From assembly GCA_015233895.1 (NCBI GenBank), contig JADFXG010000002.1:62001-126000 (forward strand): DNA of 64,000 bases, given 5' to 3'. Source of the DNA: Nitrospirota bacterium (GTDB lineage: Bacteria > Nitrospirota > Thermodesulfovibrionia > Thermodesulfovibrionales > Magnetobacteriaceae). Numbering within the stretch: the first letter of the stretch is position 1; the number at the start of each line of letters is the position of its first letter. The notes beneath the pieces are model-generated. The model worked only from the letters and a program-made list of their open reading frames with translations, was not told the origin of the DNA and ran no database searches. The position numbers and the translations under genes were made by a program. Positions 1-56,708 of this stretch are shown piece after piece.

Positions 1-37
1 GGAGCAGTTGTGATGCCCTCGTTGTAGTTTAGTGGCA

Positions 38-3000
38 ATGAGATTATTGAGAAATCTTTTTAAAATTGATCTGAACCGCATATCTCTGACACTAAAAATG
101 GCTCTTGTGTCAGTGCTGGTCGGTTTTATTGTAAGCGTTGCAGGTGGTTACGTACTCAGTAAAAACCTCAAAGCAGTGCTCAATGAACGGTTAACCGAAC
201 AGCTTACCAAAGTGGCGGCTGACAACAGAAGGGTTTTTGACAAGTTTTACATTGGCTTCCATCAGCAAGTACGCCTGTTTGTATCTCGCAGTGACTTTCT
301 AAATTATATTTCTAACGTAAAGTGGGACAATTCATCTGAGCCAATCATCCTGAAGGATGTTCCGCCGTGGGCTCCCCCTGCTTCAATGCTCCGGACATTT
401 CAGCAGTTTAGCTATCTGTTGTTGTTTGATGCAAATGGAAACCTGAGGGAATTCTTTCAAAATGATGCCAGACCTCCTTCTGTTGGCCTCTTAAAACAAA
501 ACTACTCACTTTTCTTGCAAATCAGTAACGACATCACAATGACAACATCCATAAGTGGAGAGCCATATGTCCTGTCCTCAAAGACTGTTTCAGATAATAA
601 AGGAAACACTCTTGCCACCCTGATGATGGTCGAACGTGTGGATTCGGATATGCTGCAGGTTCTCTACGGAACCGATGCGCCAGGAGTAATAGCGATTGTT
701 TCGTCAAAAGATTCAAAAGTAATAGTAAGCAATAAGCCCAATCTAATACCTCAGGGAACTACCTTCGACAACAATTTTAAAAAGAAATACACTTTTTTAG
801 GAAAGTCTTTCTTAGACTATGGAGATGTGGACTCGTGGTTAATGATTGTCTCTTTAATCTCCAATGAGGATGTGGAGAGCCTGGATCGCACTATCATGCT
901 TAGAACCAGGCTGTTGGGAATAGTAGGTGCGTCTTCCTTAATATTTTCTTTTGTAATCGTAATGATGTTTGCAATGAAAAAAATTTCACGTCTGAATCGT
1001 GAAATTACTGAGTTTTCAAAAGCGACAGGCGTAAACCTAAGTATGCAAAGCAATGCCGGCGACCAACTATTCCAACTTGAGAAGAGATTCAGGATGCTTT
1101 TAGATGAAATACTCATTTCGAGAAAAGAAATTGAAAATAAAAATGAAGAGTTAGAACTGAGAGTGGAGGAAAGAACTGAGGAGCTTGCTGCCGCTAATGA
1201 AGAGCTCTATGCCACTAATGAAGAGCTCAGTGCCACTAATGAAGAGCTCAGTGCCACTAATGAAGAACTTATTAATACAAACAATGTGTTAGAGCGTGAG
1301 GTATCGGAACGTAAGAAGGTTGAAGATGAGTTAGTAAAGGCAAAAGAGTCAGCAGAAGAGGCCAATAAAGCTAAGAGCACATTTTTAGCCAATATGAGCC
1401 ATGAGTTGCGCACCCCCATGAACGGTATCATAGGAATGACTAATCTGGCTCTGGACACACTCCTTGACAGCGACCAGAGGGAGTATTTAACCATAGTTAA
1501 AAACTCCTCAAACCATCTGCTTAACCTGATAAATGACGTATTGGATTACTCTAAAATAGAAGCCGGCAAAATGGAACTACAGGAGGCGGATTTTGATTTG
1601 TTTATAACTATAAAAACCACACTGGAACCTATGGTGATTACGGCAAACAACAAGGGAGTAAATCTAACAGTGGAGATTTCACCTGCAGTGCCGGCTTCAT
1701 TACAAGGAGATGCCGGAAGGCTGCGGCAGGTGTTGGTTAATCTTATCGGCAACTCTCTAAAGTTTACAGACAAAGGCAAAATTGAGTTGAAAGTGGATTT
1801 GGCTCAAAGAGTTTTAAAGACAGCTCAGCCCACTGATGAAAAAACTCAAATATTGTATTTCTCAATCTCTGATACAGGAATAGGTATTCCTAAAGAAAAC
1901 TTAGACGGAATTTTTGACAGCTTTAGCAGAGTAGAAAGTTTTTCAACCAAAAAATATGAAGGGACAGGGCTTGGGCTGGCAATAGTAAAAAAGGTTGTGG
2001 CAATGCTTGGTGGTGAGATATGGGTGGAGAGCGAATTAGGCAAAGGCAGTACCTTCTATTTCACGTCCAGATTTAAGGTATTATCAAAGCCTGCATCAGA
2101 CGTTGCACGCATAGAAAAGACTGCATTCAGACCTAAACGCATACTTGTAGTTGACAGTGATATATCTATAAGCAAAAAGATAGCCGAAATGATACGCAGT
2201 GATGGCTTCTATGTTGAAGTGGCCTCAGGCGGTTATGAGGCCTCAGGTATTCTCACATTTTCAACCATACAGTATGACATAGCCATTGTAGATTTCCAAC
2301 TTTCAGATATGGACGGCTTTGCATTTTCAAAAAATATGAAATCCATAGAGAAGTTGTCACATATCAAAGTGATTATGATGGTCTCAGCAGGCATAAAAGG
2401 AGATGACCTGCATTGCAGGGCTCTTGGCATTTCCGGGTACTTAGTTAAACCAATTTATAAGTCTGATTTAATTGCAATACTCTCTATGCTGATAGCTAAT
2501 TGGGAAAACCCTGAGGCACCGCTTTTGACTCGCCACACAGCGCTGGAATCAAGAAGTTCTCTTAATGTTTTATTAGCTGAGGATAATATCGTAAACCAGA
2601 CACTTGCAGTGAAACTTCTGGAAAAACACGGGATTAAGCCATCAGTTGCAGGAAACGGACTAGAGGCAACAGAGGCAACAGCTAAAACCCGCTTTGATCT
2701 CATTCTCATGGATATTCAGATGCCGGTGATGGATGGTTTAGAGGCGGCAAAGCATATAAGAAAATCACTGGACTGTGAGATAAATAAAGATGTGCCAATA
2801 ATAGCTATGACCGCTAACGCTCTCATAGGAGACAAGGAACGATGTATTGAAGCAGGGATGACAGATTATATTTCTAAGCCTATAGAGGCTGATGATTTAT
2901 ATGCACTAATTGAAAAGTACACCGCCTCCTGGCAGGCAAGGAGTGACACATCGTCTCTTAATCTTGAAGACAGATCGGATGATGTTTCCGCTTTACAGCA

Positions 3001-3391
3001 GCCTGCCCAAATCACATCTGAAACGTCATTAAATATAGCTAAAACCTTAAAGCGGGTAAAAAACGACGAGGGAATCCTCAGAGATATGTGGCAGGCGTTT
3101 GTAGAGGATGCTCCAAATCAGATAGCTTATCTTAAAACCCTGTTTGAAGCAAGAAATATAGAGGGGTTAAAACAACAAATCCATTTGATTAAAGGGATGT
3201 CCGCCAATGTTGGCGCCACAGCTCTTAACAGTGAATCTATAAGAACAGAGGCGGCACTTAAAAACATGAATGATAGCACTGAAGATGCAGAAAAAATACG
3301 AAGCTTTGTAGAAAATATACAATTTGAATCAGAGAAGGCTTTAAAGGATATGGCCACCTGTCTTTCACAACCTGTAGGCACAATTCGCTGA
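38..3391 (+). CDS. Membrane hybrid histidine kinase (HisKA-HATPase-REC-REC-HPt)
   Basis: A phosphorelay sensor. Seen: TM helix near residues 20-43, a periplasmic sensor region of about 245 residues, TM helix near 292-314, a HAMP-like segment and a long coiled coil. Then come the HisKA H-box with [10 protein letters not shown] (His about 455), HATPase N, D (DTGIGIP) and G (GTGLGLA) boxes, a first receiver (DFQLSDMDG), a second receiver ([15 protein letters not shown]) and a C-terminal HPt ([12 protein letters not shown], His about 1049). All phosphorelay residues look intact. Start: an ATG at 38 is preferred over an in-frame GTG at 32; no strong SD is visible. The coiled coil contains a 21-bp tandem repeat. 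No dedicated response regulator adjoins. The ligand is unknown. From the HisKA onward it is closely related to the kinase at 52668-56708. Confidence 0.93.
1190..1273 (+). repeat. Four 21-bp in-frame tandem repeats in a kinase coiled coil
   Basis: Four units of exactly 21 bp, based on GCCACTAATGAAGAGCTCAG plus T. Units two and three are identical; the first and last diverge slightly. Each unit encodes seven residues (A-T-N-E-E-L-S type), one coiled-coil heptad, between the HAMP-like region and the HisKA domain. Copy-number change would lengthen or shorten the signalling helix by whole heptads without altering frame. Confidence 0.9.
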
Positions 3392-3473
3392 TAAGGAAAA
3401 TACGTTACTGTGCCAAACGGCACCTTAAATTAATAACATCCATCTAAGCGTAGAATAAGAGAACTGAATTAAG

Positions 3474-4511
3474 TTAATAAACAGAGCCGCCGATAAAGTG
3501 GCAGTACTTACAGTTTATTCCATGTGTACAGTTTCCGGCCCATTTGGGTTCTTTGCCGTCAATCTCCGTTAGATACTGTTTGGCAGCGCGGTGACAGGGG
3601 TTTAACTTTAAACATTCCACAAGGTGTTTTCTTTCTTTTTTCAGCGTATAAAGGTGAAAGTGAGCGCCTGAGACCAGTTTCTTATTAAAACACTCCGCCG
3701 TTACCAGCTCAAACATCTCTATGGCCCTTTCCTCGCTGATACTTTTGATTCTCGTCACGCCGTTATAGTAGTCGGTCCAGCCTCTTTTGTTGCGTATGGT
3801 TTTAAATTGCTTAAGCTCCTCAATTTCCAAAAGTGTAGGGATGTAATCAGCCCATTTATGTGCAAAATATGCTGAATCTTTAATAAAGACGCTCATGTAA
3901 GACGGGTTTTTCTTGCGGTAATATTGATAGTTGTGGATTATCTCCAGATCAAGCACACTTGCAACCTTCTTACCCATCTGCCATGCCTGCATACAGATAT
4001 CCAGATCATGCTGGTATTTGTTATATTTGTCGTCAAAATAAAAACTCTTACAATCTCTCACAAACAACAGGGCACTGCAGAGTGTGGGCATATAGGCAGC
4101 GCTGCTTTTAATCTCATCGGGGTCGAGCATCTGATCGGTAAAGAGCCACGAAAGCCCGTCGCTGTCAATCCATATCCCGTCGTGGTTAGGCTCACCACTT
4201 TCAAACACATGGCGGCAACCCACAATGTCAGCTCCAAGAGCATCCGATACCTCATACACCCTCTCTAACCATCCGCTTTCGTATATTTCCACGTCATCAT
4301 CAAGAAAGACCACGTTCATACTGCGGTCGGCAGCATACCTAAGAATACGATTCATTACGGTTGGATGATTAAAGCTGCCGTCAAAGTTATTGTCCAGAAG
4401 GATAAACTCCGCACGGGTTAAATCCGTAGCCTTAACAGACCTCACAGCCCGCCGGGTTATCAGCCGGTTGTAGTTAGGGGTACACATCACTATAAGCGTA
4501 TCTTTTTTCAT
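3474..4511 (-). CDS. GT2-type glycosyltransferase with C-terminal Cys tail
   Basis: Probable family 2 (GT-A fold) glycosyltransferase. The N-terminus (VMCTPNYNRLITRRAVRSV) and the metal-binding acidic motif VVFLDDDVEIY near residues 88-98 fit the fold. The roughly 230-residue catalytic domain is followed by a helical, TPR-like stretch (CLKLNPCHRAAKQYL). An unusual tail follows with cysteines spaced C-x5-C-x2-C (CTHGINCKYC). The gene at 4516-5568 is a full-length paralog with the same tail. It is last in a minus-strand operon of three GT-like genes and a radical SAM gene, four bases after the preceding gene. Donor and acceptor sugars cannot be read from sequence. The upstream sigma-28-like promoter suggests a flagellar substrate (inference). 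Confidence 0.85.
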   Translation of the reverse strand: MKKDTLIVMCTPNYNRLITRRAVRSVKATDLTRAEFILLDNNFDGSFNHPTVMNRILRYAADRSMNVVFLDDDVEIYESGWLERVYEVSDALGADIVGCRHVFESGEPNHDGIWIDSDGLSWLFTDQMLDPDEIKSSAAYMPTLCSALLFVRDCKSFYFDDKYNKYQHDLDICMQAWQMGKKVASVLDLEIIHNYQYYRKKNPSYMSVFIKDSAYFAHKWADYIPTLLEIEELKQFKTIRNKRGWTDYYNGVTRIKSISEERAIEMFELVTAECFNKKLVSGAHFHLYTLKKERKHLVECLKLNPCHRAAKQYLTEIDGKEPKWAGNCTHGINCKYCHFIGGSVY

Positions 4512-4515
4512 AAGC

Positions 4516-5568
4516 TCACGTCAGAATATAGCATTTTCTGCAATCCACATACATATTACAATTATATTTTGACAGTTTTTCGCTCTCATTTCCCAATCTG
4601 TCTTTTAAGAGAGCTTTTGCCTTTTGATGACAAGGGTTATACTTAAGACAGTTTTCAAGATGAGATAGTTTTCCCTCAAGCTGATACAAGTGAAAATAAC
4701 TGTCTGACTTGTACTTTTCATTTATGCTCTCAGTCGCTACTTTTGTAAACAAACTGACAGAGAGTTCCTTATCAACAGTTTTCAGCCTTTCGGCTCGTAT
4801 AAGATAATGTTCGTAAGTCATGTGTCGCCATGTAATGGTTTCTGAAAACTCCTTAAATCTTACAAGTTCCGGGATTTCTAATAGTGTAGGGATATAAGAA
4901 GCCCATTTAGTAGAAAAATAACCTGAATCCTCATGAAACGTATCCCAGAAAGTTGGGTTTTTAAGCTCATAGTACTTAAGGTTGTGAATAATTTTCATCT
5001 CACGGTCACACGCAACTCTTGAGCCTTGCTGCCACGCCTGAATACAAATATCAATGTCATGATGGTACTTTATATAATTAACATCAAAGTAATACTTAGC
5101 AGGGTTTTTTACAAACATTACTGCACTGCAAAGTCCTGGCACATAAGCTGCGCCATTTATCACATACTTAGGTTCCATCACAAGATCATTGTACATCCAC
5201 GTACCGGTCTGTTTACACACAAAAATCCCTTCATGATTGAACGCTCCATTTTCATAAACATGCACTGAGCTTACAATGTCGGCTCCCATCGTCTCTGACA
5301 CCTCATGAAGGCGCTCTATCCAGTTGTAGTCATAGACCTCGATGTCATCGTCAAGGAATATGACGGTTTTTCCGGTTTCTGCCCCATACTTTAACATCCT
5401 GTTCATAACCGTGGGGTGATGAAAGCTCCTGTCGTAGTTATTGTCCAGAACTATAAACTCCGCTCTTTCTAAGTTGGTCTCTTTAACGGAACCTATAGCA
5501 CGCATGGAAATCATGCGGTTTACCGTTGGAGCACACATTACAACAATTGTATCTTTCATTGTTTTCAT
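4516..5568 (-). CDS. GT2-type glycosyltransferase, paralog with Cys tail
   Basis: Full-length paralog of the downstream glycosyltransferase. It has the same N-terminal strand (VVMCAPTVNRMISMRAIGSV), the DxD-type motif VIFLDDDIEVYD and a matching catalytic domain. The C-terminal helical segment (CLKYNPCHQKAKALL) and terminal C-x5-C-x2-C motif (CNMYVDCRKC) are also shared. The ATG at 5568 and a second in-frame ATG at 5559 are both possible; the second aligns better with the paralog. It sits between the radical SAM gene (24 bp away) and the other GT (4 bp). Probably a tandem duplicate that acts on a related acceptor. Confidence 0.85.
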   Translation of the reverse strand: MKTMKDTIVVMCAPTVNRMISMRAIGSVKETNLERAEFIVLDNNYDRSFHHPTVMNRMLKYGAETGKTVIFLDDDIEVYDYNWIERLHEVSETMGADIVSSVHVYENGAFNHEGIFVCKQTGTWMYNDLVMEPKYVINGAAYVPGLCSAVMFVKNPAKYYFDVNYIKYHHDIDICIQAWQQGSRVACDREMKIIHNLKYYELKNPTFWDTFHEDSGYFSTKWASYIPTLLEIPELVRFKEFSETITWRHMTYEHYLIRAERLKTVDKELSVSLFTKVATESINEKYKSDSYFHLYQLEGKLSHLENCLKYNPCHQKAKALLKDRLGNESEKLSKYNCNMYVDCRKCYILT

Positions 5569-5592
5569 AATATTATACTTATATTATTAAAA

Positions 5593-7701
5593 TTATTCAT
5601 CTACGATTTTTTTCTGTGTTCTGATAAACAGTATCGGGTCTTTAACAAAATCCCCTTCATAAGGAGTCATCTCATCGGTACCAAAACGACCGGCGTACTG
5701 ACTGGCAAAGCCGTCACATATAAACCCAAGGGCGCAGAAACGGCACTTATCACCTTGCTCAAAAGCAGTGTTTTTAAACTTATGCGCCTCTAAGAGGTGC
5801 ATCTCCTCCTCTGTATCAACAAGGTTTCTTATGACACGAGGAGTCTTTGGAGAGGGGTTTCTGGTTTTTTCAGAAAACCAGCTGCAGAAATCCCATTCGT
5901 GTGGGTCGTAGCTAAGTTGTGAGTAATTGTAGCATTTATTTTCGTGACCTTTCATCATGCAAAACGGGAAATACCTGACATTAGCCTCAAGCCCCACATG
6001 ATCGCAGTAGTCTAACGCCTCACGTAAGTACGGGCTTATATCACTGTGGTGCGCCTGAAAATCTATGTCCATTTTAAGAGTCCAGCCCTCAAATGGATTA
6101 TAGCTTATGAAATTAATAGCGCGCGCTCCGTGCTGATAACTAAATCTGGCAATATCTGTTAACTGTGTCTTATTAACGGCAGTCATTGTGCAATTGACCC
6201 GCCACTTAATAACGTGCTTCTGGAAATTTTCTACTGCCGAAACCACATGTTTCCAGCCGTCTTTTGATTTTGTAAGAAAGTCGTAAGTCTGCCCTATAGC
6301 ATGTACCGAACAGAGAAAATCATAAACTCCGGCTTCTTTTAATTTGAGCAAAGTCTCAACATTTGCTAAAGCTCTCATATTACTTATAAGCGTGGGTTTA
6401 AGGCCTATCTCATTACAATACTTAACTAACTCAATGATATGGGGATAAATCGTTGGCTCACCCCCTGTGATGTCAACACAATCGTTTTTGTACTCATTAC
6501 GGTATAAGTAGGCATCCTCTTTACATTCCTCAAGTGTGTGCCAGTTCTTAGCTGGGGTGTGGGCGTAGTAGCAAAATATACACTTAATATTACAAAGGTA
6601 ACCCACGTAGAGCACTGCCCGTTTGGTAAGTTTCCGGTCGGTTGTCGTCGTTAATTTATCAGAGGGCTTTATCTGAAGATCTCCTGTTTCATAATGGACA
6701 TCTTTAGATATTAACGTTGAATCATTTGATTTTACATTAGAATTATGCGTTACCAGACCATCGAAACCGATAACCGTTATTGTATCATAATGGACACTAA
6801 GCATCTCTTTAAGGTATTTTCTGACCTCAATTTCACGGCCTATCGGAGTTATTACAATAGTATCATATTCATTTATTGAATCTTTCAAACACTCCGTGTA
6901 ACGTATGGTATGGTTATGAAAAGGTTTTCCACAGAGCTCCTTATTTGCGTCAACTACAAGCTTAACACTTTCACCAAGCAGTGGGGCAAGTGCATTTGAT
7001 ATTGTTCCGGCACCGTAGAGAGCTATATTTTTTTTATTTTTTGATGCCGTAGCCAGCTCAAGGATGCTTAAAATAAAAGTGGTCATATTGTGCCGCTTGT
7101 ACAAGGGATGAGCTCTGGGGTTAAATTCAGGGAGGGAGCTGATGACAGCCGGCATTCTTAATTCCGGTACGTGTACGTTTACCATGGTTTTTTTCTCATG
7201 TTGCAGTATCGGGTCGCCAATAGCTGTCAGATTTTCCAAAAAAGCGGTATCAGGATTTTTGTTGTTGCCATCATTGCCGTTTTCACTTCTAAACCAATCA
7301 TTCAGGCCATACCTACAATGATATCGTACGATAAGTTCCATACACACAGATAAAATTGACAACTGTCCTTTGTCTTTAGAAAGTAAATACAGTCCTTTTG
7401 CACAGTCATCCTCACAACGCTTAATCATTTCCCACATTAGAGGAATGCTAATTGATTTCAGGTCAGGCACCCAAAATAAATAATCCACCCAGTAATTGAA
7501 ATCCTCAATCAGCGCCGCTTTCATAACCTCCTGCCGGCACCTGAGAGGGTCACTGTCGTAATACCAAAAACACCGGCACTCATAGCTAAAAAAATGTGAC
7601 ATTGCGGCATAGAGGTCATATATTTTAATAATATCCTCTGCTTTGGGCTCACTACTTAGGGGCAGCGCCAAAGCTATCCTTATTTCATAGGTTTTTTTCA
7701 T
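5593..7701 (-). CDS. Radical SAM/SPASM-like protein with internal Rossmann-like domain
   Basis: A 702-residue multidomain protein. Residues 1 to about 200 form an uncharacterised mostly helical region with several Cys. About 220-330 looks like a small Rossmann domain (IALYGAGTISNALAPLLG, then a sugar/nucleotide-binding-like pattern), as found at the end of some sugar methyltransferases. About 360-580 is a radical SAM core with C370-x3-C374-x2-C377 (CNIKCIFCYY) and the GGEP motif (DITGGEPTIYPH). The C-terminal 100 residues carry further cysteines (CSWFSEK; CRFCALGFIC), consistent with a SPASM-like auxiliary cluster. The gene lies inside the glycosyltransferase operon. It may modify a sugar, a glycoprotein or a peptide; the exact chemistry is not deducible. 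Confidence 0.85.
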   Translation of the reverse strand: MKKTYEIRIALALPLSSEPKAEDIIKIYDLYAAMSHFFSYECRCFWYYDSDPLRCRQEVMKAALIEDFNYWVDYLFWVPDLKSISIPLMWEMIKRCEDDCAKGLYLLSKDKGQLSILSVCMELIVRYHCRYGLNDWFRSENGNDGNNKNPDTAFLENLTAIGDPILQHEKKTMVNVHVPELRMPAVISSLPEFNPRAHPLYKRHNMTTFILSILELATASKNKKNIALYGAGTISNALAPLLGESVKLVVDANKELCGKPFHNHTIRYTECLKDSINEYDTIVITPIGREIEVRKYLKEMLSVHYDTITVIGFDGLVTHNSNVKSNDSTLISKDVHYETGDLQIKPSDKLTTTTDRKLTKRAVLYVGYLCNIKCIFCYYAHTPAKNWHTLEECKEDAYLYRNEYKNDCVDITGGEPTIYPHIIELVKYCNEIGLKPTLISNMRALANVETLLKLKEAGVYDFLCSVHAIGQTYDFLTKSKDGWKHVVSAVENFQKHVIKWRVNCTMTAVNKTQLTDIARFSYQHGARAINFISYNPFEGWTLKMDIDFQAHHSDISPYLREALDYCDHVGLEANVRYFPFCMMKGHENKCYNYSQLSYDPHEWDFCSWFSEKTRNPSPKTPRVIRNLVDTEEEMHLLEAHKFKNTAFEQGDKCRFCALGFICDGFASQYAGRFGTDEMTPYEGDFVKDPILFIRTQKKIVDE

Positions 7702-7721
7702 ATTTTCATTCCCAATTGGTT

Positions 7722-8402
7722 CTAAGACATCTTTAAGATTTTTATATCCTCATTTAAAAACAACTGTGCTTTAATGAAGTAACACCATTTGCTTCTAAAA
7801 TGCTCAAAGTCCTTTTCACCTGCCTCATCCCCTGTTAACAAACCATCTCCAGTTATCTCCAGTGTCATGGAGGCTGCAACCTTCTTTCCCTCTGACCATG
7901 TGTTGACACACATATCCGTCACGTATAGATTACCTTCAAAGTTTTCATCAATTTCAATCTTATCAGGGTGCATTATAAAGATAAGGCCCGGCGACACACC
8001 CGGCACGTACATAAATGGTAACGCAGGCTTGCCATCCTCCATTGCAACATGTGCAGCCTTATCGGTAAGATTGTAACCATAGATTCTCTTCTGTGTTTTT
8101 TCATTCAAATTTACACATCCCACTAAAGATGCGCCGGATAACTCCTGAGTGTTGGTGAGTTTATCAAGCCATGAGTAATCTTTAACCAAAACCCCGTTTT
8201 TAAGAATTACAACAGGCCTTCCATCGGCATAAGCCATGTAGGCCTTAATACGCCTTGAGAACGGCTCTTCATTATCATAGCCGCTGTCGGCTATAAAAAG
8301 TTCCGCCCTGGAAAGATCGGTCTTTTTTATATATTCAATGGTTTTTCTCGTAACCGGATGGTTTAAATCAAAGGTGCTTAGTATTATCAATATTTCTTTC
8401 AT
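7722..8402 (-). CDS. Truncated, motif-less glycosyltransferase-like protein
   Basis: First gene of the operon and related to the two downstream glycosyltransferases. The opening (ILIILSTFDLNHPVTRKTI), the SRAELFIADSGYD strand and the ending near HFRSKWCYFIKAQL all align with them. Two differences stand out. The acidic DDD motif that binds metal is replaced by K-N-G (VVILKNGVLVKDYSW). The protein also stops at 226 residues, lacking the helical region and Cys tail. It is therefore likely inactive as a transferase; a binding or regulatory subunit or a decaying paralog are options. The start is supported by a GGAG about 9 bases upstream. Confidence 0.75.
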   Translation of the reverse strand: MKEILIILSTFDLNHPVTRKTIEYIKKTDLSRAELFIADSGYDNEEPFSRRIKAYMAYADGRPVVILKNGVLVKDYSWLDKLTNTQELSGASLVGCVNLNEKTQKRIYGYNLTDKAAHVAMEDGKPALPFMYVPGVSPGLIFIMHPDKIEIDENFEGNLYVTDMCVNTWSEGKKVAASMTLEITGDGLLTGDEAGEKDFEHFRSKWCYFIKAQLFLNEDIKILKMS

Positions 8403-8440
8403 TAATTAACTCCGTTAAAAGTTTTTACATAGTTATTACT

Positions 8441-8467
8441 TTATCGGCATAAAAACCGTTTACCTTA
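8441..8467 (-). promoter_or_regulatory. Sigma-28 (FliA)-like promoter of the GT/radical SAM operon
   Basis: Read on the minus strand: TAAGGTAA, 11 bases, GCCGATAA. The -10 element matches the FliA consensus at all 8 positions. The -35 element matches TAAAGTTT at 5 of 8. The 11-base spacer is canonical. It ends 38 bases before the start codon of the first operon gene. No competing sigma-70 motif of similar quality lies closer. Consensus is from general knowledge of FliA promoters; transcription is not shown. Confidence 0.6.
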
Positions 8468-8535
8468 AAATCTTGCCAAAACATATCTAAATTATACCAA
8501 AAAAGCATCATAAGAAAAACATTTATCGGTGATTA

Positions 8536-12913: not shown

Positions 12914-13092
12914 GTGAAAAGATATGAACTTATACGAGAGATGGTAAGTTGTGGCTGCTATTTAAAACGCTATGTGAAAAATCACGATATTTATATTAAT
13001 CCACGAAATGGTAAAAAAGCGCCTGTACCCAGACATACGAAATTAAAGACAGCTTATATGTATTGATTTAAAAAAAACTTGAACTAAAATAA
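12914..13092 (+). pseudogene. hicA: hicA-like toxin gene, frameshifted
   Basis: HicA toxins are about 60-residue double-stranded-RNA-binding-fold mRNA interferases. From a GTG at 12914 the frame gives VKRYELIREMVSCGCYLKRY, then NHDIY and PVPRH: the catalytic-His region (NHDIY) and PVPRH motif of HicA. After PVPRHT the frame shifts. The related copy at 15755 has one extra G at this point and reads on to ...LKKQLELK-stop, while this copy ends in an unrelated tail at 13066. A further substitution would stop the restored frame. No intact HicB antitoxin is seen alongside. The gene is therefore considered dead. Confidence 0.75.
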
Positions 13093-13096
13093 CTTA
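13007..13096 (+). repeat. 90-bp direct repeat, left copy (3' part of hicA)
   Basis: From AATGGTAAAAAAGCGCCTGT to ACTTA this segment is repeated, with a few differences, at 15755-15845. Differences include one missing G after ACATACG and changes in the A-rich stretch near the end. The two copies bracket the DUF2157/GDYXXLXY module and a glnD fragment. Confidence 0.9.
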
Positions 13097-13265: not shown

Positions 13266-13961
13266 ATGGTTGACCAAAAAGTTGTAGATTACATAAAAAC
13301 TTCCTTGGCGCAGGGTAAGACAAAGGAGGAGCTTTACAAGGAGCTCCTTGGACAAGGTTGTACTATTGAAATTATTCAGGAAAATTTCAACGCAATAAAC
13401 GCCGAGCAAGAAAAAGAAGATACATCAAAAAGAACAATCCGCATAATTGTAACGATTGGCGCCATTTTTGTTGGAGCCGGAATTTTTTCATTTATCGCCG
13501 CAAATTGGCAAGAGATGTCAAAACCATTAAAAATTGGGGTTATTCTTGTTTCAATGTTGGTATCTTACGGAATCGGTTGGTATCTCAAAGAAAAACTTAA
13601 TATGGAAAAAACCGGCTCGGCTTTGTTTTTGCTCGGCTCTATTATTTACGGTGCGGGAATATTTTTAGTGGCTCAAATGTTCCATACGCGAGCAAATTGG
13701 CCAGACGGTTTTATTTTGTGGATGTTTGGTGTTATTGCTGTCGCTTTCGCGTTAGAATCCTTCTCACATTTCTATCTTGCTATTCTTTTGGGATTCGTAG
13801 CAATGATTGGACACCCCATAGAAATTTTTACAGGAATTTTCGGCTACCAAGCTTTCTTATTAACTTCTTCATTTTTACTTTTGATTGTAACCATAGTAAC
13901 TTTTATTACCGGATGGATTATTAGAAAAAAAATGCCACCGGAGCTTAAAGAATTTTATTAA
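13266..13961 (+). CDS. DUF2157 domain membrane protein
   Basis: Predicted integral membrane protein of 231 residues. The N-terminal 45 residues are soluble and contain a short helical motif (VDYIKTSLAQGKTKEELYKE...GC). About six hydrophobic helices follow, starting with a DUF2157-type segment (IGAIFVGAGIFSFIAANW). It is the first gene of a three-gene unit whose last member is a GDYXXLXY protein; these families commonly co-occur, with no known function. The next gene begins 3 bases after the stop, so co-transcription is likely. No obvious SD precedes the ATG. The N-terminal helical motif resembles one seen often in Patescibacteria proteins (recollection, unverified). Confidence 0.8.
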   Translation: MVDQKVVDYIKTSLAQGKTKEELYKELLGQGCTIEIIQENFNAINAEQEKEDTSKRTIRIIVTIGAIFVGAGIFSFIAANWQEMSKPLKIGVILVSMLVSYGIGWYLKEKLNMEKTGSALFLLGSIIYGAGIFLVAQMFHTRANWPDGFILWMFGVIAVAFALESFSHFYLAILLGFVAMIGHPIEIFTGIFGYQAFLLTSSFLLLIVTIVTFITGWIIRKKMPPELKEFY

Positions 13962-13964
13962 ACT

Positions 13965-15074
13965 ATGTATATTTTTTATAGAATTTTTTCTTTCCTGCTT
14001 TGGCCAATTCTGATTATTGGTTTGATTGTTTTTTTCATCAGGAGAAGGCATAAAAAACTACATCCTTCTCAAAATAAAGAATGGTATTTACAATTTGCGC
14101 TATCAAAAGAGGACGCTGTAAGTCAATTATTTCTTTTGCTTTCTTTTTTCTTTCTCGGTGTTACTTTACTTGCTTTCAATCGTGACTTTGGCGAGCCAGT
14201 ATCATGGCGTGCTATTGTTTTTATTACATCGTCCGCTGGGCTTATCAGCGCATACTATTTAAAAACGATTTATACTTTGGTATTTAGTCTCGTAGGATTG
14301 ACAGGTTGGTGGGGAGCACAAGCCGCGCAGTGGATAGACGGAAAAAATATTAAGACATCCGCACTTTTTGCTGGTTTATCTTTGATTGCTCTTATTTTCT
14401 ATTCTCTTGGACATCTGCATGAAAAACAAATGAAGTTCAAGCGCTTCGCTCTTGTATATTTAGTTCTTGGAATCATTGCTGTTACCGGGGCTTTATTCTT
14501 TTTCTCAACAAAGCCCGGCATAGGTGTGATTGGGAAAATGGCAAAAGGTTCCTCATTCTTTGGCTCGTGGCAACTAACGTTATCTTTGTTCGTTTTTCTT
14601 ATTTCGTTAGTTGGAGCAACGCTTTATGCCGCGGCGCAAAAACTTTTATCATCTTTTGAATTACTTGCAGTTTTTGCTTTAACCTGTCTGTTTGGAACTA
14701 CCGCCTTGCTTCCTGCACAGACAATGTTTGTCCAAACAGGGCAATATTATTATTCGTATTATGGCGGCAATGAACTTTCAAGCACAGGTGTTTTATGGGC
14801 ACTTATCTATAATTTCGCAATATTTTTTGAATTACTCGGATTGATTTTTTCTGGTTATTTGCGCCGCGAAACTTGGCTTATCAATCTTAGCGCGTTATTT
14901 CTATTTCTACTTGTTATCGTTAAATACTTTGATTGGTTTTTTACTTTCCTGGATAAAAGCATTTTTTTTATTGGTGCGGGCATTCTTCTTTTCGTTGTCG
15001 GTTGGTTCATGGAAAAAGGCAGGAGATATATGATTTCAAATATCAAAGCTCAAGCGCAACAAATCCAGCAATAA
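13965..15074 (+). CDS. Polytopic membrane protein of the DUF2157/GDYXXLXY module
   Basis: 369 residues, almost entirely hydrophobic with about ten predicted helices separated by short polar loops (RRRHKKLHPSQNKEW; DGKNIK; RKE). The position between a DUF2157 protein and a GDYXXLXY protein is where DUF4401-type membrane proteins usually lie, so it is probably that class. No catalytic motif is visible. The final residues (KAQAQQIQQ) are polar. It overlaps nothing; the next gene starts 5 bases after its stop. Confidence 0.75.
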   Translation: MYIFYRIFSFLLWPILIIGLIVFFIRRRHKKLHPSQNKEWYLQFALSKEDAVSQLFLLLSFFFLGVTLLAFNRDFGEPVSWRAIVFITSSAGLISAYYLKTIYTLVFSLVGLTGWWGAQAAQWIDGKNIKTSALFAGLSLIALIFYSLGHLHEKQMKFKRFALVYLVLGIIAVTGALFFFSTKPGIGVIGKMAKGSSFFGSWQLTLSLFVFLISLVGATLYAAAQKLLSSFELLAVFALTCLFGTTALLPAQTMFVQTGQYYYSYYGGNELSSTGVLWALIYNFAIFFELLGLIFSGYLRRETWLINLSALFLFLLVIVKYFDWFFTFLDKSIFFIGAGILLFVVGWFMEKGRRYMISNIKAQAQQIQQ

Positions 15075-15079
15075 TTATT

Positions 15080-15631
15080 ATGACAAAACAAACAAAATTT
15101 ATATTGGCGATAGCATTGCAGGTGGTAATAATTTTCGCTATTATTATTTTCAAATTATCCGTTCTCACTAGTGGTACTGAAGTTATGCTTCGGATTGCCC
15201 CTGTTGATCCGCGGGATTTGTTGCGCGGCGACTATGCCACTTTTCAATATGATATTTCTAATCTTGAATCCTATTATTCTCGTGGCGAACAAATCAGAAA
15301 TGGTGATACTGTGTATGTTGTATTGCGACAATCTGGAAAATGTTGGATAGCACAAAATGTTCAAAAAAATAAACCGATAAGAAACAAATTATTTATCAAA
15401 GGGAAAGTTGACAGTGGCGGCACGGAAAGTCAAACCGACCAATTTTCATATCAGCGTTTTGGTGGCTCTCGTCTTCATATTGTATATGGGATTGAGCAAT
15501 ATTTTATTCCTGAAGGCAAGGGTCAAATTTTTAGTTTTTGGAATAAAAAGGCTGTCGCAATGGTTGCCATTGATGATAATGGCAATGCGGCACTTAAAAA
15601 AATTTACGTTGATGATAAACATTGGCCATAA
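15080..15631 (+). CDS. GDYXXLXY-family protein
   Basis: Membrane-anchored protein of 183 residues: an N-terminal TM helix (FILAIALQVVIIFAIIIF), then an extracytoplasmic domain. That domain opens with the family signature PVDPRDLLRGDYATFQYDIS (GDY-x-x-F-x-Y here, with F in place of the usual L). The ATG at 15080 is chosen because it places the TM helix at the N-terminus; a longer frame from 15002 overlaps the preceding gene. The family has no established function and is usually encoded beside DUF2157/DUF4401 proteins, as here. Confidence 0.85.
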   Translation: MTKQTKFILAIALQVVIIFAIIIFKLSVLTSGTEVMLRIAPVDPRDLLRGDYATFQYDISNLESYYSRGEQIRNGDTVYVVLRQSGKCWIAQNVQKNKPIRNKLFIKGKVDSGGTESQTDQFSYQRFGGSRLHIVYGIEQYFIPEGKGQIFSFWNKKAVAMVAIDDNGNAALKKIYVDDKHWP

Positions 15632-15754: not shown

Positions 15755-15845
15755 AATGGTAAAAAAGCGCCTGTACCCAGACATACGGAAATTAAAGACA
15801 GCTTATATGTATTGATAAAAAAACAACTTGAACTAAAATAACTTA
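15755..15845 (+). repeat. Direct repeat, right copy: intact-frame hicA C-terminus
   Basis: Right-hand copy of the 90-bp repeat at 13007-13096. Its frame is undamaged and encodes NGKKAPVPRHTEIKDSLYVL and IKKQLELK, then a stop at 15839-15841: a good HicA C-terminus. It has lost the N-terminal two-thirds of hicA and is fused to the glnD-like fragment instead. Confidence 0.85.
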
Positions 15846-49873: not shown

Positions 49874-49901
49874 TAAAGTTTCTAAATTATTATGCCGAGA
49901 G
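49874..49901 (+). promoter_or_regulatory. Sigma-28-like promoter before the EF-hand-like gene
   Basis: TAAAGTTT (49874-49881, full match to the FliA -35), 12 bases, GCCGAGAG (49894-49901, 6 of 8 match to GCCGATAA). It is 75 bases upstream of the chosen ATG. A second copy of the same design lies at 51072. Confidence 0.6.
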
Positions 49902-49976
49902 AAAAATTAGATGTTGGGGGTTGTAGGGATTTTCTTTTTATTAAAGCTGTACTGAAAAAACATGGGGGGAAATAAC

Positions 49977-51068
49977 ATGGAAATAACATCGTCTAATATC
50001 AATCTGAGTTCAAACTCATCTTCTCTGGAAAAATATGAACACACGGAGAACATGTCTTTTTGGACAAACACCGGATCAAACGGCACAGCCAACAGTCCCA
50101 CTAATAACCAACCTGCAAAAGACACAGTTACTCTTTCTACAGACAGCCTGGCATTACTGGATGCAAAGAAGAGCTCTGTCAACAAAAATGAGCAGGTTGA
50201 TAATAATCTCGACCCAGGTTTATCAGGTGATCTTAGATACCTGATTCTCAAACTCATTCTTGAAAAAATAACTGGTAATAAGATTGATTTATCAAACATA
50301 AGTGATACTGCCAGTGGAAATCAGCAACCGCAGGATTCAGCACCTCCGGAAACTCAGCAAGCGCAAGCCAGCCCCGCCCCCAACTCACAACAACCGCAGC
50401 AGTGGGCTCTTAGTTACTCATCAAAAGATGTACACTATGAAAAGCAGGACTATGCCTTTAACGCTAAAGGAATCATAAAAACTAAAGACGGACAGGATAT
50501 TAAATTCTCCATTGGCGTCAACATGAGTTATGAACACTCATCTGAAACCTCTGCGTCATTATCTGCAGGAAATGTCAAACTAAGTGACCCACTGGTGATA
50601 AACTTCGGAGGCAATGCTGCTGATCTAACCGGAGGAACTTTTAACTTTGACCTTAACTCTAACGGTAAGGATGTAAAAATGCCAATGACAGGCCAGGGTA
50701 GTGGTTATCTTGCTTTAGATTTAAATCATGATGGTGTGATTAATACCGGAAAAGAGCTATTTGGGCCTACAAGCGGTAATGGGTTTTCAGAACTTTCTGC
50801 TTATGATGAAGATAATAATAAATGGATAGATGAAAAAGATTCTGTTTTTAATAAGTTATCGGTGTTGAAGAAATCTCCAAATGGTGACACTGTTCTAAGT
50901 AGTTTAAAAGATAACGGAGTGGCAGCAATTTACCTTGGCAACATAGGCGGGCAGTTTAATTATAAGGACGGAGCAGGGAATTTGCTCGGACGATTGTCCA
51001 GTATGGGTTTATACACAAAAAATGATGGAACTGTCGGCACAGTAGAGCAGGTTGACGTGCACACGTAA
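49977..51068 (+). CDS. EF-hand-like/VCBS-type protein, probably flagellum-associated
   Basis: No named family recognised with certainty. 363 residues: a low-complexity N-terminus rich in S, N, T and Q (with DTVTLSTDSLALL, reminiscent of flagellar FlgM/hook-length proteins), a Q/P-rich linker, then a C-terminal domain. That domain carries two Asp-rich loops, DLNHDGVINTGKELFG and YDEDNNKWIDEKDSVF, typical of EF-hand-like calcium-binding repeats in secreted proteins. No signal peptide is seen. The ATG at 49977, with GGGGGG just upstream, is preferred to one at 49962. A sigma-28-like promoter upstream and fliW downstream suggest a flagellar regulon member. Confidence 0.7.
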   Translation: MEITSSNINLSSNSSSLEKYEHTENMSFWTNTGSNGTANSPTNNQPAKDTVTLSTDSLALLDAKKSSVNKNEQVDNNLDPGLSGDLRYLILKLILEKITGNKIDLSNISDTASGNQQPQDSAPPETQQAQASPAPNSQQPQQWALSYSSKDVHYEKQDYAFNAKGIIKTKDGQDIKFSIGVNMSYEHSSETSASLSAGNVKLSDPLVINFGGNAADLTGGTFNFDLNSNGKDVKMPMTGQGSGYLALDLNHDGVINTGKELFGPTSGNGFSELSAYDEDNNKWIDEKDSVFNKLSVLKKSPNGDTVLSSLKDNGVAAIYLGNIGGQFNYKDGAGNLLGRLSSMGLYTKNDGTVGTVEQVDVHT

Positions 51069-51071
51069 CTC

Positions 51072-51099
51072 TAAAGTTTTTGAAATTTTTTACCGAATA
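51072..51099 (+). promoter_or_regulatory. Sigma-28-like promoter before fliW
   Basis: TAAAGTTT (51072-51079), 12 bases, ACCGAATA (51092-51099; CCGA conserved). It has the same -35 and spacer as the element at 49874. It lies just after the stop of the EF-hand-like gene and about 190 bases before fliW. Confidence 0.45.
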
Positions 51100-51286
51100 A
51101 ATATATGGCGGATGGGGAGGGGAGAAATTTGGGATAAAGTAGGGGAATTTATGGATTAGGAGGTACTTGACACTATATATGTTAACTTACTTACATAATC
51201 ATGATATTCAATATACTTGTGTTGATTATGTATAATGTGTTATTATTAAAGTGCAAGTATTGTACTACAGAACTTATGGAGGCATA

Positions 51287-51727
51287 ATGAAGCTCAGTAC
51301 AACAAGGTTTGGAGTGGTTGAGGTTGAGGACGGCAAGGTTATCAACTTTCCCAGGGGTCTGATAGGTTTTAAAGACTTAACGAGGTATTGCGTGTTGCCA
51401 CATAAGGATCCTATAAAGTGGCTTCACTCTGCTGATGACCCTGATTTAGCCTTTATGGTGTCAAACCCATTTGAGTTTTTCCCTGAGTACTCGTTTAAAG
51501 TAGAAGACTTTGTTGAAGAATACTTGGGCTGTTATAGTGTCGCTGATGTCTTAGTGTTTGTAATTTTAACAGTTAACGATAACAAACTGTATGCTAACTT
51601 AAAATCACCTATAATAATAAATACGTCAAATATGAGGGGTGCTCACTTAGTGTTAAGTGACGATACAATACCAGTCAGAACATTGGTGACATCTCCTGTT
51701 GCCACACAACGGGCAGCGTATTACTGA
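51287..51727 (+). CDS. fliW: Flagellar assembly factor FliW
   Basis: FliW binds flagellin and antagonises CsrA, coupling flagellin translation to filament assembly. Seen: VEDGKVINFPRGLIGFKDLT, the DPDLAFMVSNPFEFFPEYSF region, ADVLVFVILTVN and NLKSPIIINTSNMRGAHLVL, all characteristic. 146 residues is normal. ATG at 51287 with GGAGG 6 bases upstream is chosen over a frame opening at 51251. csrA, usually adjacent, is not found here. A TATAAT at 51231 could give an additional promoter. Confidence 0.95.
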   Translation: MKLSTTRFGVVEVEDGKVINFPRGLIGFKDLTRYCVLPHKDPIKWLHSADDPDLAFMVSNPFEFFPEYSFKVEDFVEEYLGCYSVADVLVFVILTVNDNKLYANLKSPIIINTSNMRGAHLVLSDDTIPVRTLVTSPVATQRAAYY

Positions 51728-52667: not shown

Positions 52668-55600
52668 TCAGAGAATTTCACCTGCAGGTTTTGAAAGACA
52701 GGTTTTCATGTCTTGTAAAGCCTTCTCTGATTCAAATTGTATATTTTCTATAAAGGTACGTATTTGCGCATTTTCATCAACAGTATCATTTATTTTTGAG
52801 AGTGCTACCTCCATTCTGAAAGCTTCACTTTTAAGAGCTGTGGCGCCCACACTGGCAGACATTCCCTTAATCAAGTGGATTTGTTTCTTTAATCCTTCGA
52901 CATTTTTTGCGTCAAACAGTTTTTTAAGAAAAACTATTTGCTTTGGCGCATCATCTATAAACGCCACCCACATATCTCTGAGAATTCTCTCATCGTTATT
53001 AACCCTCTTTAATGTTTTCACTATATTTAATGACATAGCAGATGTCCTCTGGGCAGGAGGCTGAAAATCTACAAGCTCTGCATCTGAAATATCATCAGGG
53101 GTGGGTTCCTGTTTGCCAGCCATTGTTTCAAACCTTGTCAGGTTGGAGGCAGTGTATTTGTCAATTAATGCATACAAATCATCAGCCTCCATAGGTTTTG
53201 AAATATAATCTGTCATTCCGGCTTCAAGACAACGTTCTTTATCTCCTGTAAGAGCATTCGCTGTCATTGCAATTATAGGTACATCTTTATTTATCTCACA
53301 TTCTTTTGCAGTTCTTATATGCTTTGTTGCTTCTAAACCATCCATCTCCGGCATCTGCACATCCATGAGGACAAGATCAAAACTGGCTTTAGCCAGTATT
53401 TTTACTGCCTCCAATCCGGTTACTGCAACTACCGGCATAATCCCTCGTTTTTGCAGAACCTTGACTGCAAGTGTTTGGTTTACTATATTATCCTCCGCTA
53501 ACAAAATATTAAGAGACCTTTTTGACCTTTGCATCATATGACGAGTCAGAAGCGGCGCCAGAGGGTTATCCCAATTCTCTATTATCATAGAAAGTATTTC
53601 TTTTAAGTCAGATTTATAAATTGGTTTAACCATATAACCGCCAATACCCAGCTCACGGCATTTTGCATCATCTCCTTTCAAACCTGCTGATACAAGCATT
53701 ATTACTTTAACCTGTGACAGTTTCTCTGTAAATTTCATGTTTTTTGAAAATGCAAAGCCATCCATATCGGAGAGTTGGAAATCCAAAATTACTATTTCAT
53801 ATTCCTTAGTTGAATAGTTAAGCATACCGAATGCTTCAAAACCGCTTGAAGCAATATCAACATAAAACCCCTCGCTTCTTAGCATGTCGGCTATTTTTTT
53901 GTTTTCGGACGTGTTGCTGCCTACTGCAAGTATGTTTTTAGTCCTGAATTCAATCCTCTCCATATTTGTGGCACTTGTGGCAGGTTGTGTCAATACTGAA
54001 AACTTAACAGTGAAATGAAACGTACTGCCCTTTCCCAACTCACTTTCCACCCATATATCGCCGCCAAGCATTGTCACAACCTTTTTTACAATTGCAAGTC
54101 CAAGCCCTGTTCCTTCATATTTTTTGGCCGCGGTATCTTCTAACATGGTAAAACTGTCAAATATCACGTCCAACTTTTCTGTGGGAATTCCTATTCCGGT
54201 ATCAGAGATTGAAAAATGTAATATCTGTGTTTTTCCTTCACCGGGAGACACTGCTTGTAATACCTGCTGAGCCAAATCCACTTTCAACTCTATCTTGCCA
54301 TGTTCTGTAAACTTTATTGAGTTGCCGGCAAGATTAACCAACACCTGCCTCAACTTTCCAGCATCGCCTTTTAATGCTGTTGGCACATCTGGTGAAATTT
54401 CAACACTAAATTTTATTCCTCTGTTTGTTGCCGTAATGGCCAAGGGTTCTATTGTGGTTTTTATTGTTTTAAATAAATCAAAATCAACTTCTTTTATTTC
54501 CAGCTTGCCAGCTTCTATTTTAGAAAAATCCAATATGTCGTTTATCAGATTAAGCAGATGCGTTGACGAGTTTTTAACTATGGTCAGATACTCCCTTTGT
54601 TCAGAGTCAAGAAGAGTATCCAGCGCAAGGTTAGTCATTCCAATTATCCCGTTCATTGGAGTACGAAACTCATGGCTCATGCTGGCTAAAAATGTGCTTT
54701 TTGACCTGTTTGCCGCCTCAGCTAATTCTTTTGCTTTAAGTAATTCATTTTCAATTTGTTTACGTTCCGATATCTCATCAATCAGCTTATTGTTAGAGTC
54801 GGTAAGTTCAATAGTTCTTTCATCCACTCTAATTTCCAATTCTTTATTTTTGTTTCTTATCTCATTCTCTTGTAGACGTAATTGCTGTATTGCATCTTGT
54901 AATTTATCTTCTACTATTTTACGTTCAATTATTCCAGCCACAGCATTTGCTACAGAAGTTAGGCAGTTCTCTTCTAATTCATTTCGTTTATGTCCTTCAA
55001 TGGTATATAGGTTTATAACGCCTAACACCTTCTCTCTTGATATTATAGGAACACAATAATGTCCATGATTTTGCATATCCTCGAATGTTATATCATGCTC
55101 AACATCTAACGATGATTTAAATATCATTTTACCTGTTTCGGCAGCACGTCCACACAGGCATTTTCCTACCGGCAGGTAACTACAGGAGTTAAATAGTTCT
55201 GAAGAGACTCCTTTATGAGCTTTCATTACAAGAATATCTGGATTATCTTCCATTAAAAAGATACAGCCAGTAGATTTTTCTGAAAGCCATGATATAGTGC
55301 TGATTATTTCAAGTATCTCTTGTAACTGCTCTTTTAATGAAATCGGTTCAAGAGATACTAACAATATCTGATTTATCACGGATTGTATTAAGTAATTATT
55401 TATTATCTTTTCCTCAGCTTCTTTACGAACCATTACTCCTGCTATGGTATTTGCCACGCTTTTCAGGAAATCCTCTTCACTTTTGTTTCTTACATGTCCA
55501 TCGTTTAAATAAATATTAATAATCCCGAAAAGTCTATCTTCTAAAATAATAGGTACACAATAATGACCATGTGACAGCATATTTTTGTATTTAATAGAAT

Positions 55601-56708
55601 GTTCATTTTCTATACAATCAGATGAAAATACTACATCTCTTGTGTAAGCACACATACCACACAGGCATTTACCGTATGGCAATGATGAGCACGTTGTCTG
55701 TTGTTCATCAGAAAAACCCTGAGACACAGTAAGTTCAAGCATACGGGATTTTTCATCAGTAATGAAAATAGCGCCTTTTGAATGTATTGAAACCCACGAA
55801 TTTTTCATTATAAGCTCTAATATCATTTGCAACTGTATCCGGAGGGAGTCGGATGATAACGATATTTTTAGAATAGAGTTTACAATATTTCGGGTTTTAA
55901 TATTTTGTTTAATATTTATTTCTCTCCTATTTAACTGTTCTACCGTTTCCTGAAGTTTTTTCCTTGATTCATAATTTAATAGTTTAATCACTCCAACCAT
56001 AGAGAAGGCTATAATAAAAGCACTGATTGCTCTGAACACTTGAACCGGCATATGCACATAAGTCAGAAAACTATCGGTATTAAGCATATTTGCAGGAAAG
56101 AAATTACCTTTAGGTACGATAAATCCTGCTAAAAAACCATATATAAAAAAAAATATTGCTGATAGTAAAAAATATCTATCAAGCTTTAAAATTTTAATCA
56201 GAGTCTCTTCTTTACAATAGTACCTAAAACCCACTGTAATCATGATGGCTCCTGGTAAAGCCAGAAAATACCTTGTTAATATTTGTACCACCTTTAAAGA
56301 TTCCTGGGATTTGTACGAAATTATAAAAATAATCGTTAATAGAGCAGGCAATAACCACCATTTTAAATATTTCTGAAGGTTTTTCAGCAAAATGTTTTCA
56401 CAAATTATTAATGTTCTTCTCCCAAACTCAAATAAGAAACAAAAAGATAATACAAGGCAAAACAAACTCAAAGATTTTAAAATTAGATGTGTCGGATGTA
56501 TAAACGATAGCATATCAAGACATTCGTTTGCACCATGAATTAAAGCAAAGGCTGTTAATAACCACAGGATTTTTGATAACTTAAACTGATTGTCATTTTT
56601 GGGCTGTACAAGTATAGAAATGCCCATAAATATAAAGACAAATCCATAGGCTAGAAATACATAGTCCATATTACTCTTAAAAAATTGTTGTAATGAATCC
56701 AAATCCAT
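52668..56708 (-). CDS. Hybrid histidine kinase: 7TM, two GAF, HisKA-HATPase, degenerate REC, REC, HPt
   Basis: 1346 residues. About seven TM helices span residues 14-245. Two GAF domains follow (about 270-420 and 440-590), each with the signature GKCLCG and HGHYCVPI. Then a coiled coil, HisKA ([10 protein letters not shown], His679), HATPase (DTGIGIP, GTGLGLA), first receiver, second receiver ([15 protein letters not shown]) and C-terminal HPt ([12 protein letters not shown]). The first receiver keeps its phosphoacceptor region ([10 protein letters not shown]) but has lost the Mg-binding acidic pair (ILAVGSN). From HisKA to the end it parallels the kinase at 38-3391, so the two share a recent ancestor with swapped sensor modules. 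Confidence 0.93.

Follow-up and report, generated by a model that had tools for sequence, protein, structure and literature searches.

Introduction

The usual explanation of flagellin glycans combines nonulosonic-acid pathways with simple sugar transfer. Two described systems come closest to the locus studied here. In Shewanella oneidensis, the sfmABCDE genes have a FliA box 57 bp upstream, and their deletion shifts the mass of flagellin (PMC3765264). FliB is a flagellin lysine methylase carrying a 4Fe-4S cluster; it has no characterised protein domain, and 5'-deoxyadenosine was not detected (PMC8598068). A FliA box in front of a flagellin-modification operon (PMC3765264) and a 4Fe-4S flagellin methylase (PMC8598068) are thus already known.

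We have analysed a four-gene operon located in a 64-kb stretch of a Nitrospirota genome (the window, by which the whole stretch is meant). It is similar to sfmABCDE in having a FliA consensus shortly upstream of genes for cytoplasmic modification (PMC3765264). The two differ in content: sfm codes for a PseI-like protein and other enzymes, and the words "radical" and "glycosyltransferase" do not occur in the paper (PMC3765264), whereas the products of the operon described here are GT2-type enzymes plus a radical SAM protein, with no PseI homologue among them. With FliB it shares the proposed involvement of 4Fe-4S and SAM chemistry in post-translational flagellin modification (PMC8598068); unlike FliB, the protein of this operon has the canonical CX3CX2C motif of radical SAM proteins as well as domains of the sugar-handling type, and its gene lies in an operon with glycosyltransferases. 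The new element is that a FliA box is combined here with a canonical radical SAM protein whose three-domain build is unusual. A literature search that covered few of the subscription journals found no paper linking radical SAM enzymes to flagellin glycosylation.

Operon Organization and Glycosyltransferases

The operon contains four ORFs transcribed in the same direction and separated by gaps of 20, 24, and 4 bp. In order of transcription, these are:

7722..8402, minus strand: GT1, 226 aa, degenerate relative of GT2-type glycosyltransferases
5593..7701, minus strand: radical SAM protein, 702 aa
4516..5568, minus strand: GT2, 350 aa, GT2-type glycosyltransferase with a DDD motif and a Cys-containing C-terminus
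3474..4511, minus strand: GT3, 345 aa, GT2-type glycosyltransferase with a DDD motif (PF00535, 4.2e-6)

GT3 scores over the Pfam cut-off for PF00535. GT2, GT3 and their orthologues keep the DDD motif (EDD in one of them), the second acidic motif and the His of PF00535 glycosyltransferases, from which GT2 and GT3 differ by an extra C-terminal region with a Cys-rich tail. GT1 is homologous to GT2 and GT3, but the catalytic motifs of PF00535 glycosyltransferases are missing from it: KNG replaces DDD, and the second acidic motif and the terminal His are absent. The preliminary description had counted three GT2-like proteins in the operon; this holds for GT2 and GT3, whereas GT1 has lost the catalytic motifs and matched no Pfam family. 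Since GT1-type and GT3-type genes co-occur in two gene sets, GT1 is suggested to be a non-catalytic partner. Downstream of the operon, two congeners carry genes for another radical SAM/SPASM protein, for a DUF354 protein and for an unknown protein of 300 aa (L064, 2443-5540; L065, 2728-5819).

The Radical SAM Protein

The 702-aa protein matches the Pfam radical SAM family (PF04055, 2.4e-17). Its CX3CX2C motif (C370, C374, and C377) is invariant in 13 homologues, as are several C-terminal cysteines. It had been described as radical SAM/SPASM-like, and only the first half of this label was upheld by Pfam: no match to SPASM (PF13186) was obtained along the 702 residues, the C-terminal region containing a CX2CX5C motif instead.

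Three domains were distinguished in the protein: a pseudo GT-A fold (residues 1-173), a Rossmann-like domain (residues 206-319) and the radical SAM core (residues 350-702). The predicted fold of the core resembles viperin and BlsE (Z 16-17), with a viperin-like structure (9dfn) at Z 17.5 and 3.5 A over 238 residues; tetraether lipid synthase, SuiB and SkfB are also among its structural neighbours. A fold search with the whole protein detected only this core. The N-terminal half was folded alone (pLDDT 78.5). In this model, residues 1-173 resemble GT-A glycosyltransferases (GtrB, Z 12.3, 2.8 A over 137 residues; hyaluronan synthases, Z 12), and residues 198-319 resemble the C-terminal domain of sugar C3-methyltransferases (KijD1, Z 11.9; TcaB9, Z 11). 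We consider the first domain a putative pseudo-glycosyltransferase because its sequence is not conserved at the acidic-motif position. Profile comparison between this N-terminal domain and the operon's own glycosyltransferases found nothing; its likeness to GT-A enzymes is one of predicted structure.

BlsE (a cytosylglucuronate decarboxylase), DesII (acting on a TDP-sugar) and viperin all use nucleotides or nucleotide sugars as substrates. The 702-aa protein is like them in core fold and shows weak profile similarity to them, but identity is about 10-22 percent, no family match exceeds the cut-off, and its extra N-terminal half has no counterpart in any of the three. In other Nitrospirota, one protein combines a GT2-like start with a radical SAM core of the same type (L126, 7458-9275; L127, 2340-4157); the DDD motif of this GT2-like start is apparently intact, and the gene lies in a polysaccharide-type cluster.

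A Sigma-28-Type Promoter Box Precedes the Operon

The preliminary description had reported a sigma-28-type box with 11-base spacing 38 bp before the first gene, and this was borne out. The box TAAGGTAA-ACGGTTTTTAT-GCCGATAA lies at 8467-8441 on the minus strand, 38 bp 5' of the GT1 ATG at 8402; the published consensus is TAAAGTTT-n11-GCCGATAA (PMC2859248). The features read in this region are:

8460..8467, minus strand: -35 octamer TAAGGTAA, 5/8 of the consensus TAAAGTTT, separated from the -10 by the 11-base spacer ACGGTTTTTAT
8441..8448, minus strand: -10 octamer GCCGATAA, exact consensus match (8/8)
8410..8413, minus strand: GGAG, likely ribosome binding site of GT1
8491..8499, minus strand: TGGTATAAT, which may be an extended -10 belonging to a second promoter, of the sigma-70 type

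The imperfect -35 octamer is a point against a late flagellar role for the operon. TGGTATAAT is located about 23 bp further upstream than the sigma-28 box, and a TATAAT is also present upstream of the operon in G087, G089 and G076. A sigma-70 scan of the promoter region gave no excess over shuffles, and TGGTATAAT was not reported by it because no -35 qualifies. The conserved upstream TATAAT, likewise a point against the late flagellar role, could leave room for a second sigma-70 promoter providing extra basal or constitutive expression.

A bare count of mismatches does not separate the box from chance, since the consensus with up to three mismatches occurs at 115 sites in the genome and a reversed control at 119. 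The informative positions were therefore fixed, and a weight matrix was used. With TAARNT-N13-GCCGATAA, a motif scan of the genome gave five matches in 3.7 Mb against none in the control. Three of the four matches other than that of the operon precede late flagellar or flagellar-type genes. The four are:

own genome: match before a flagellin trio
own genome: perfect match before flaG-fliD-fliS
contig 24 (C24): perfect match before a gene for a 256-aa protein
window 3470-3496, plus strand: match antisense to GT3, inside its 3' end

The last one was rejected as a promoter, being a by-product of the GT3 coding sequence (codons Phe-Ile-Gly). With a weight matrix built from sigma-28 sites other than that of the operon, the operon box was the top-ranked position on both strands of the 64-kb window, and no site as good was found in 4 Mb of Markov sequence.

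Conservation of the Box in Related Genomes

Within the genus, three genomes hold a full-length orthologue of the radical SAM gene, as do four genomes of another genus of the family. G088 was left out of the box reading because a contig end cuts the start of its operon. Absence of the motif before orthologous operons had been named as evidence that would overturn control by FliA; the box was found before GT1 in all six readable operons, in two genera, with a spacer of N11 in G087 and G089 and of N12 in G074, G075, G076, and G077. The upstream neighbour gene is different in every operon-bearing genome read. In the first genus (own genome, G087, and G089), three-way identity reaches 7/8 in the -10 and 6/8 in the other octamer, against 8/50 in upstream DNA; in the second genus, four-way identity is 6/8 and 5/8 in the octamers against 2/50 in upstream DNA.

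A matrix score of at least 11.5, a threshold chosen after seeing the data and applied to related genomes, was reached by 7/7 upstream regions of the operon (own included) and by 2/156 other upstream regions. Counting only two lineages, the enrichment has a p of about 5e-4. Of the two high-scoring control regions, one precedes the gene at window 49962, a neighbour of fliW, and could be a genuine target of FliA. In the more distant homologues of G078, G072, L041, and L042 the box was not found directly before the genes, which is a point against the late flagellar role.

FliA itself is encoded in the genome that holds the window (TIGR02479 over cut-off at C21:11056) and was found in 8/8 operon-bearing genomes searched. 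In the same genome, flgM is preceded by TAAAGAAT-N12-GCCGATAA, and a box is also present on C20, before the gene for a 143-aa protein that belongs to no known family. Among the flagellin genes of the Nitrospirota family, one group has sigma-28 promoters and the other has promoters of the sigma-54 type (TGGCAC-N5-TTGC type boxes); this split is seen at L079 and L080 (own contigs 37 and 2), L131, L133, and L137-L145. The motif is shared by the flagellin trio, flaG-fliD-fliS and flgM, but not by all flagellins: some in the own genome have sigma-54-type promoters and no box, which again counts against a late flagellar role of the operon. Judged from the retention of the box before six orthologous operons and its agreement with the flagellin and flgM boxes of the same genome, FliA control of the operon, as proposed in the preliminary description, is very likely.

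Flagellar and Sugar-Pathway Neighbourhoods of Paralogues and Distant Homologues

The operon itself is not next to flagellar genes, and its homologues outside the family are located in exopolysaccharide-type clusters; both are points against a late flagellar role. Since flagellin is present in 19/19 genomes of the family, with or without the operon, co-occurrence of operon and flagellin is uninformative. Further evidence came from an alignment search of the family for glycosyltransferases, in which a second set of GT1-type and GT3-type genes was found in the second genus. In G075, the paralogous GT1 and GT3 pair starts 1.1 kb from a TPR-GT-flagellin-flaG-fliD-fliS locus; after the pair come a B12-binding radical SAM gene, a gene for a glycosyltransferase and a radical SAM/SPASM gene (L231, 13178-18202). 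In G074, the distance from the pair to flgE is 1.5 kb, the cluster also holding fliK, fliI, and fliG; the GT3-type paralogue has a sigma-28-like box of its own (score 18.0). The product of the radical SAM/SPASM gene at L231 has a Rossmann-like start.

Homologues consisting of a single glycosyltransferase and a radical SAM protein adjoin PseI in L042 and lie close to PseB/PseC in G072. NeuB-type synthases are present in the own genome. PF01973 (MAF-type flagellin glycosyltransferase) had no match in it; among the control genomes, this family matched only in archaea. The proposal of flagellar glycosylation in the preliminary description thereby gained indirect support, from the paralogous pairs at the flagellin locus of G075 and in the fliG-to-flgE cluster of G074 and from distant homologues by pseudaminic-acid genes. 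A flagellar target of the operon is probable.

Proposed Function and Alternative Explanations

We favour, as the likelier account although with clear reservations, a late flagellar operon that would build a radically modified glycan on flagellin or on another filament protein. The promoter box and its conservation, the operon structure, the protein families, the predicted folds and the flagellar neighbourhood of the paralogues can all be read from the sequences; the target, the sugar and the reaction we infer. In the proposed pathway, FliA (sigma-28) would be freed after hook completion and exit of FlgM, and RNA polymerase with FliA would then transcribe the whole four-gene operon along with flagellin. 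Of its products, GT2 and GT3 would transfer sugars, with GT1 as a catalytically dead partner of GT3. The pseudo-glycosyltransferase and Rossmann-like domains of the radical SAM protein would hold the sugar or nucleotide sugar, and its 4Fe-4S/SAM core would modify it; methylation, deoxygenation and oxidation are examples of such a change. The resulting glycan would be carried by flagellin or by a different protein of the filament.

A more specific version, that a radical SAM protein with built-in domains of the pseudo-glycosyltransferase and sugar-methyltransferase types alters the flagellin glycan under FliA timing in this Nitrospirota family, is put forward tentatively, as something that could well prove wrong. 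If true, it would add radical chemistry, timed by FliA, to flagellar decoration and would provide a concrete set of genes. It would also be a first hint of filament glycosylation in the Nitrospirota family that holds Candidatus Magnetocorallium, for which no such report was found in the literature searched.

The operon might also be driven by FliA while its glycan goes onto another product of late flagellar assembly, such as the cap, a hook-associated protein, a chemoreceptor, the stator or a cell-surface polymer. Genes of this kind belong to FliA regulons, the box is also located before the non-flagellin genes on C24 and C20, and the exopolysaccharide-type surroundings of homologues outside the family would fit. 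This is nevertheless unlikely given the paralogous glycosyltransferase pairs at the G075 and G074 flagellar loci, and because operons of this kind usually act on filament proteins.

About equally improbable is that the radical SAM protein modifies residues of flagellin directly, in the manner of FliB, with the glycosyltransferases building on or beside the modified site. 4Fe-4S/SAM chemistry on flagellin has a precedent in FliB (PMC8598068), and SuiB and SkfB, which neighbour the core in structure, modify peptides. The N-terminal half, by contrast, is like sugar-handling folds and not like a peptide-recognition domain, distant homologues encoded in polysaccharide-type clusters have a GT2 domain fused to them, and the protein has no Pfam SPASM match.

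Transcription by a housekeeping sigma factor from the upstream TATAAT, for a surface or envelope glycan and with the sigma-28 box as a chance or minor element, would agree with TGGTATAAT, with the TATAAT of the three relatives and with the lack of genome-wide enrichment by simple mismatch count, but is very unlikely, since the box is kept in all six readable relatives of two genera where upstream genes differ and the rest is little conserved, is found in 7/7 operon regions against 2/156 others, and the glycosyltransferase paralogues lie at flagellar loci.

Other Features of the Window

Two further sigma-28-like boxes were found on the plus strand of the window, one at 49874-49901 preceding an ORF of 368 aa (49962-51068) whose family is unknown and the other at 51072-51099 before fliW (51251-51727). 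A direct repeat of about 90 bp (13007-13096 and 15755-15845, blocks 93-95 percent identical) flanks the genes at 13266-15631. The window also codes for two large hybrid histidine kinases (32-3391 and 52668-56708), whose C-terminal halves are related.
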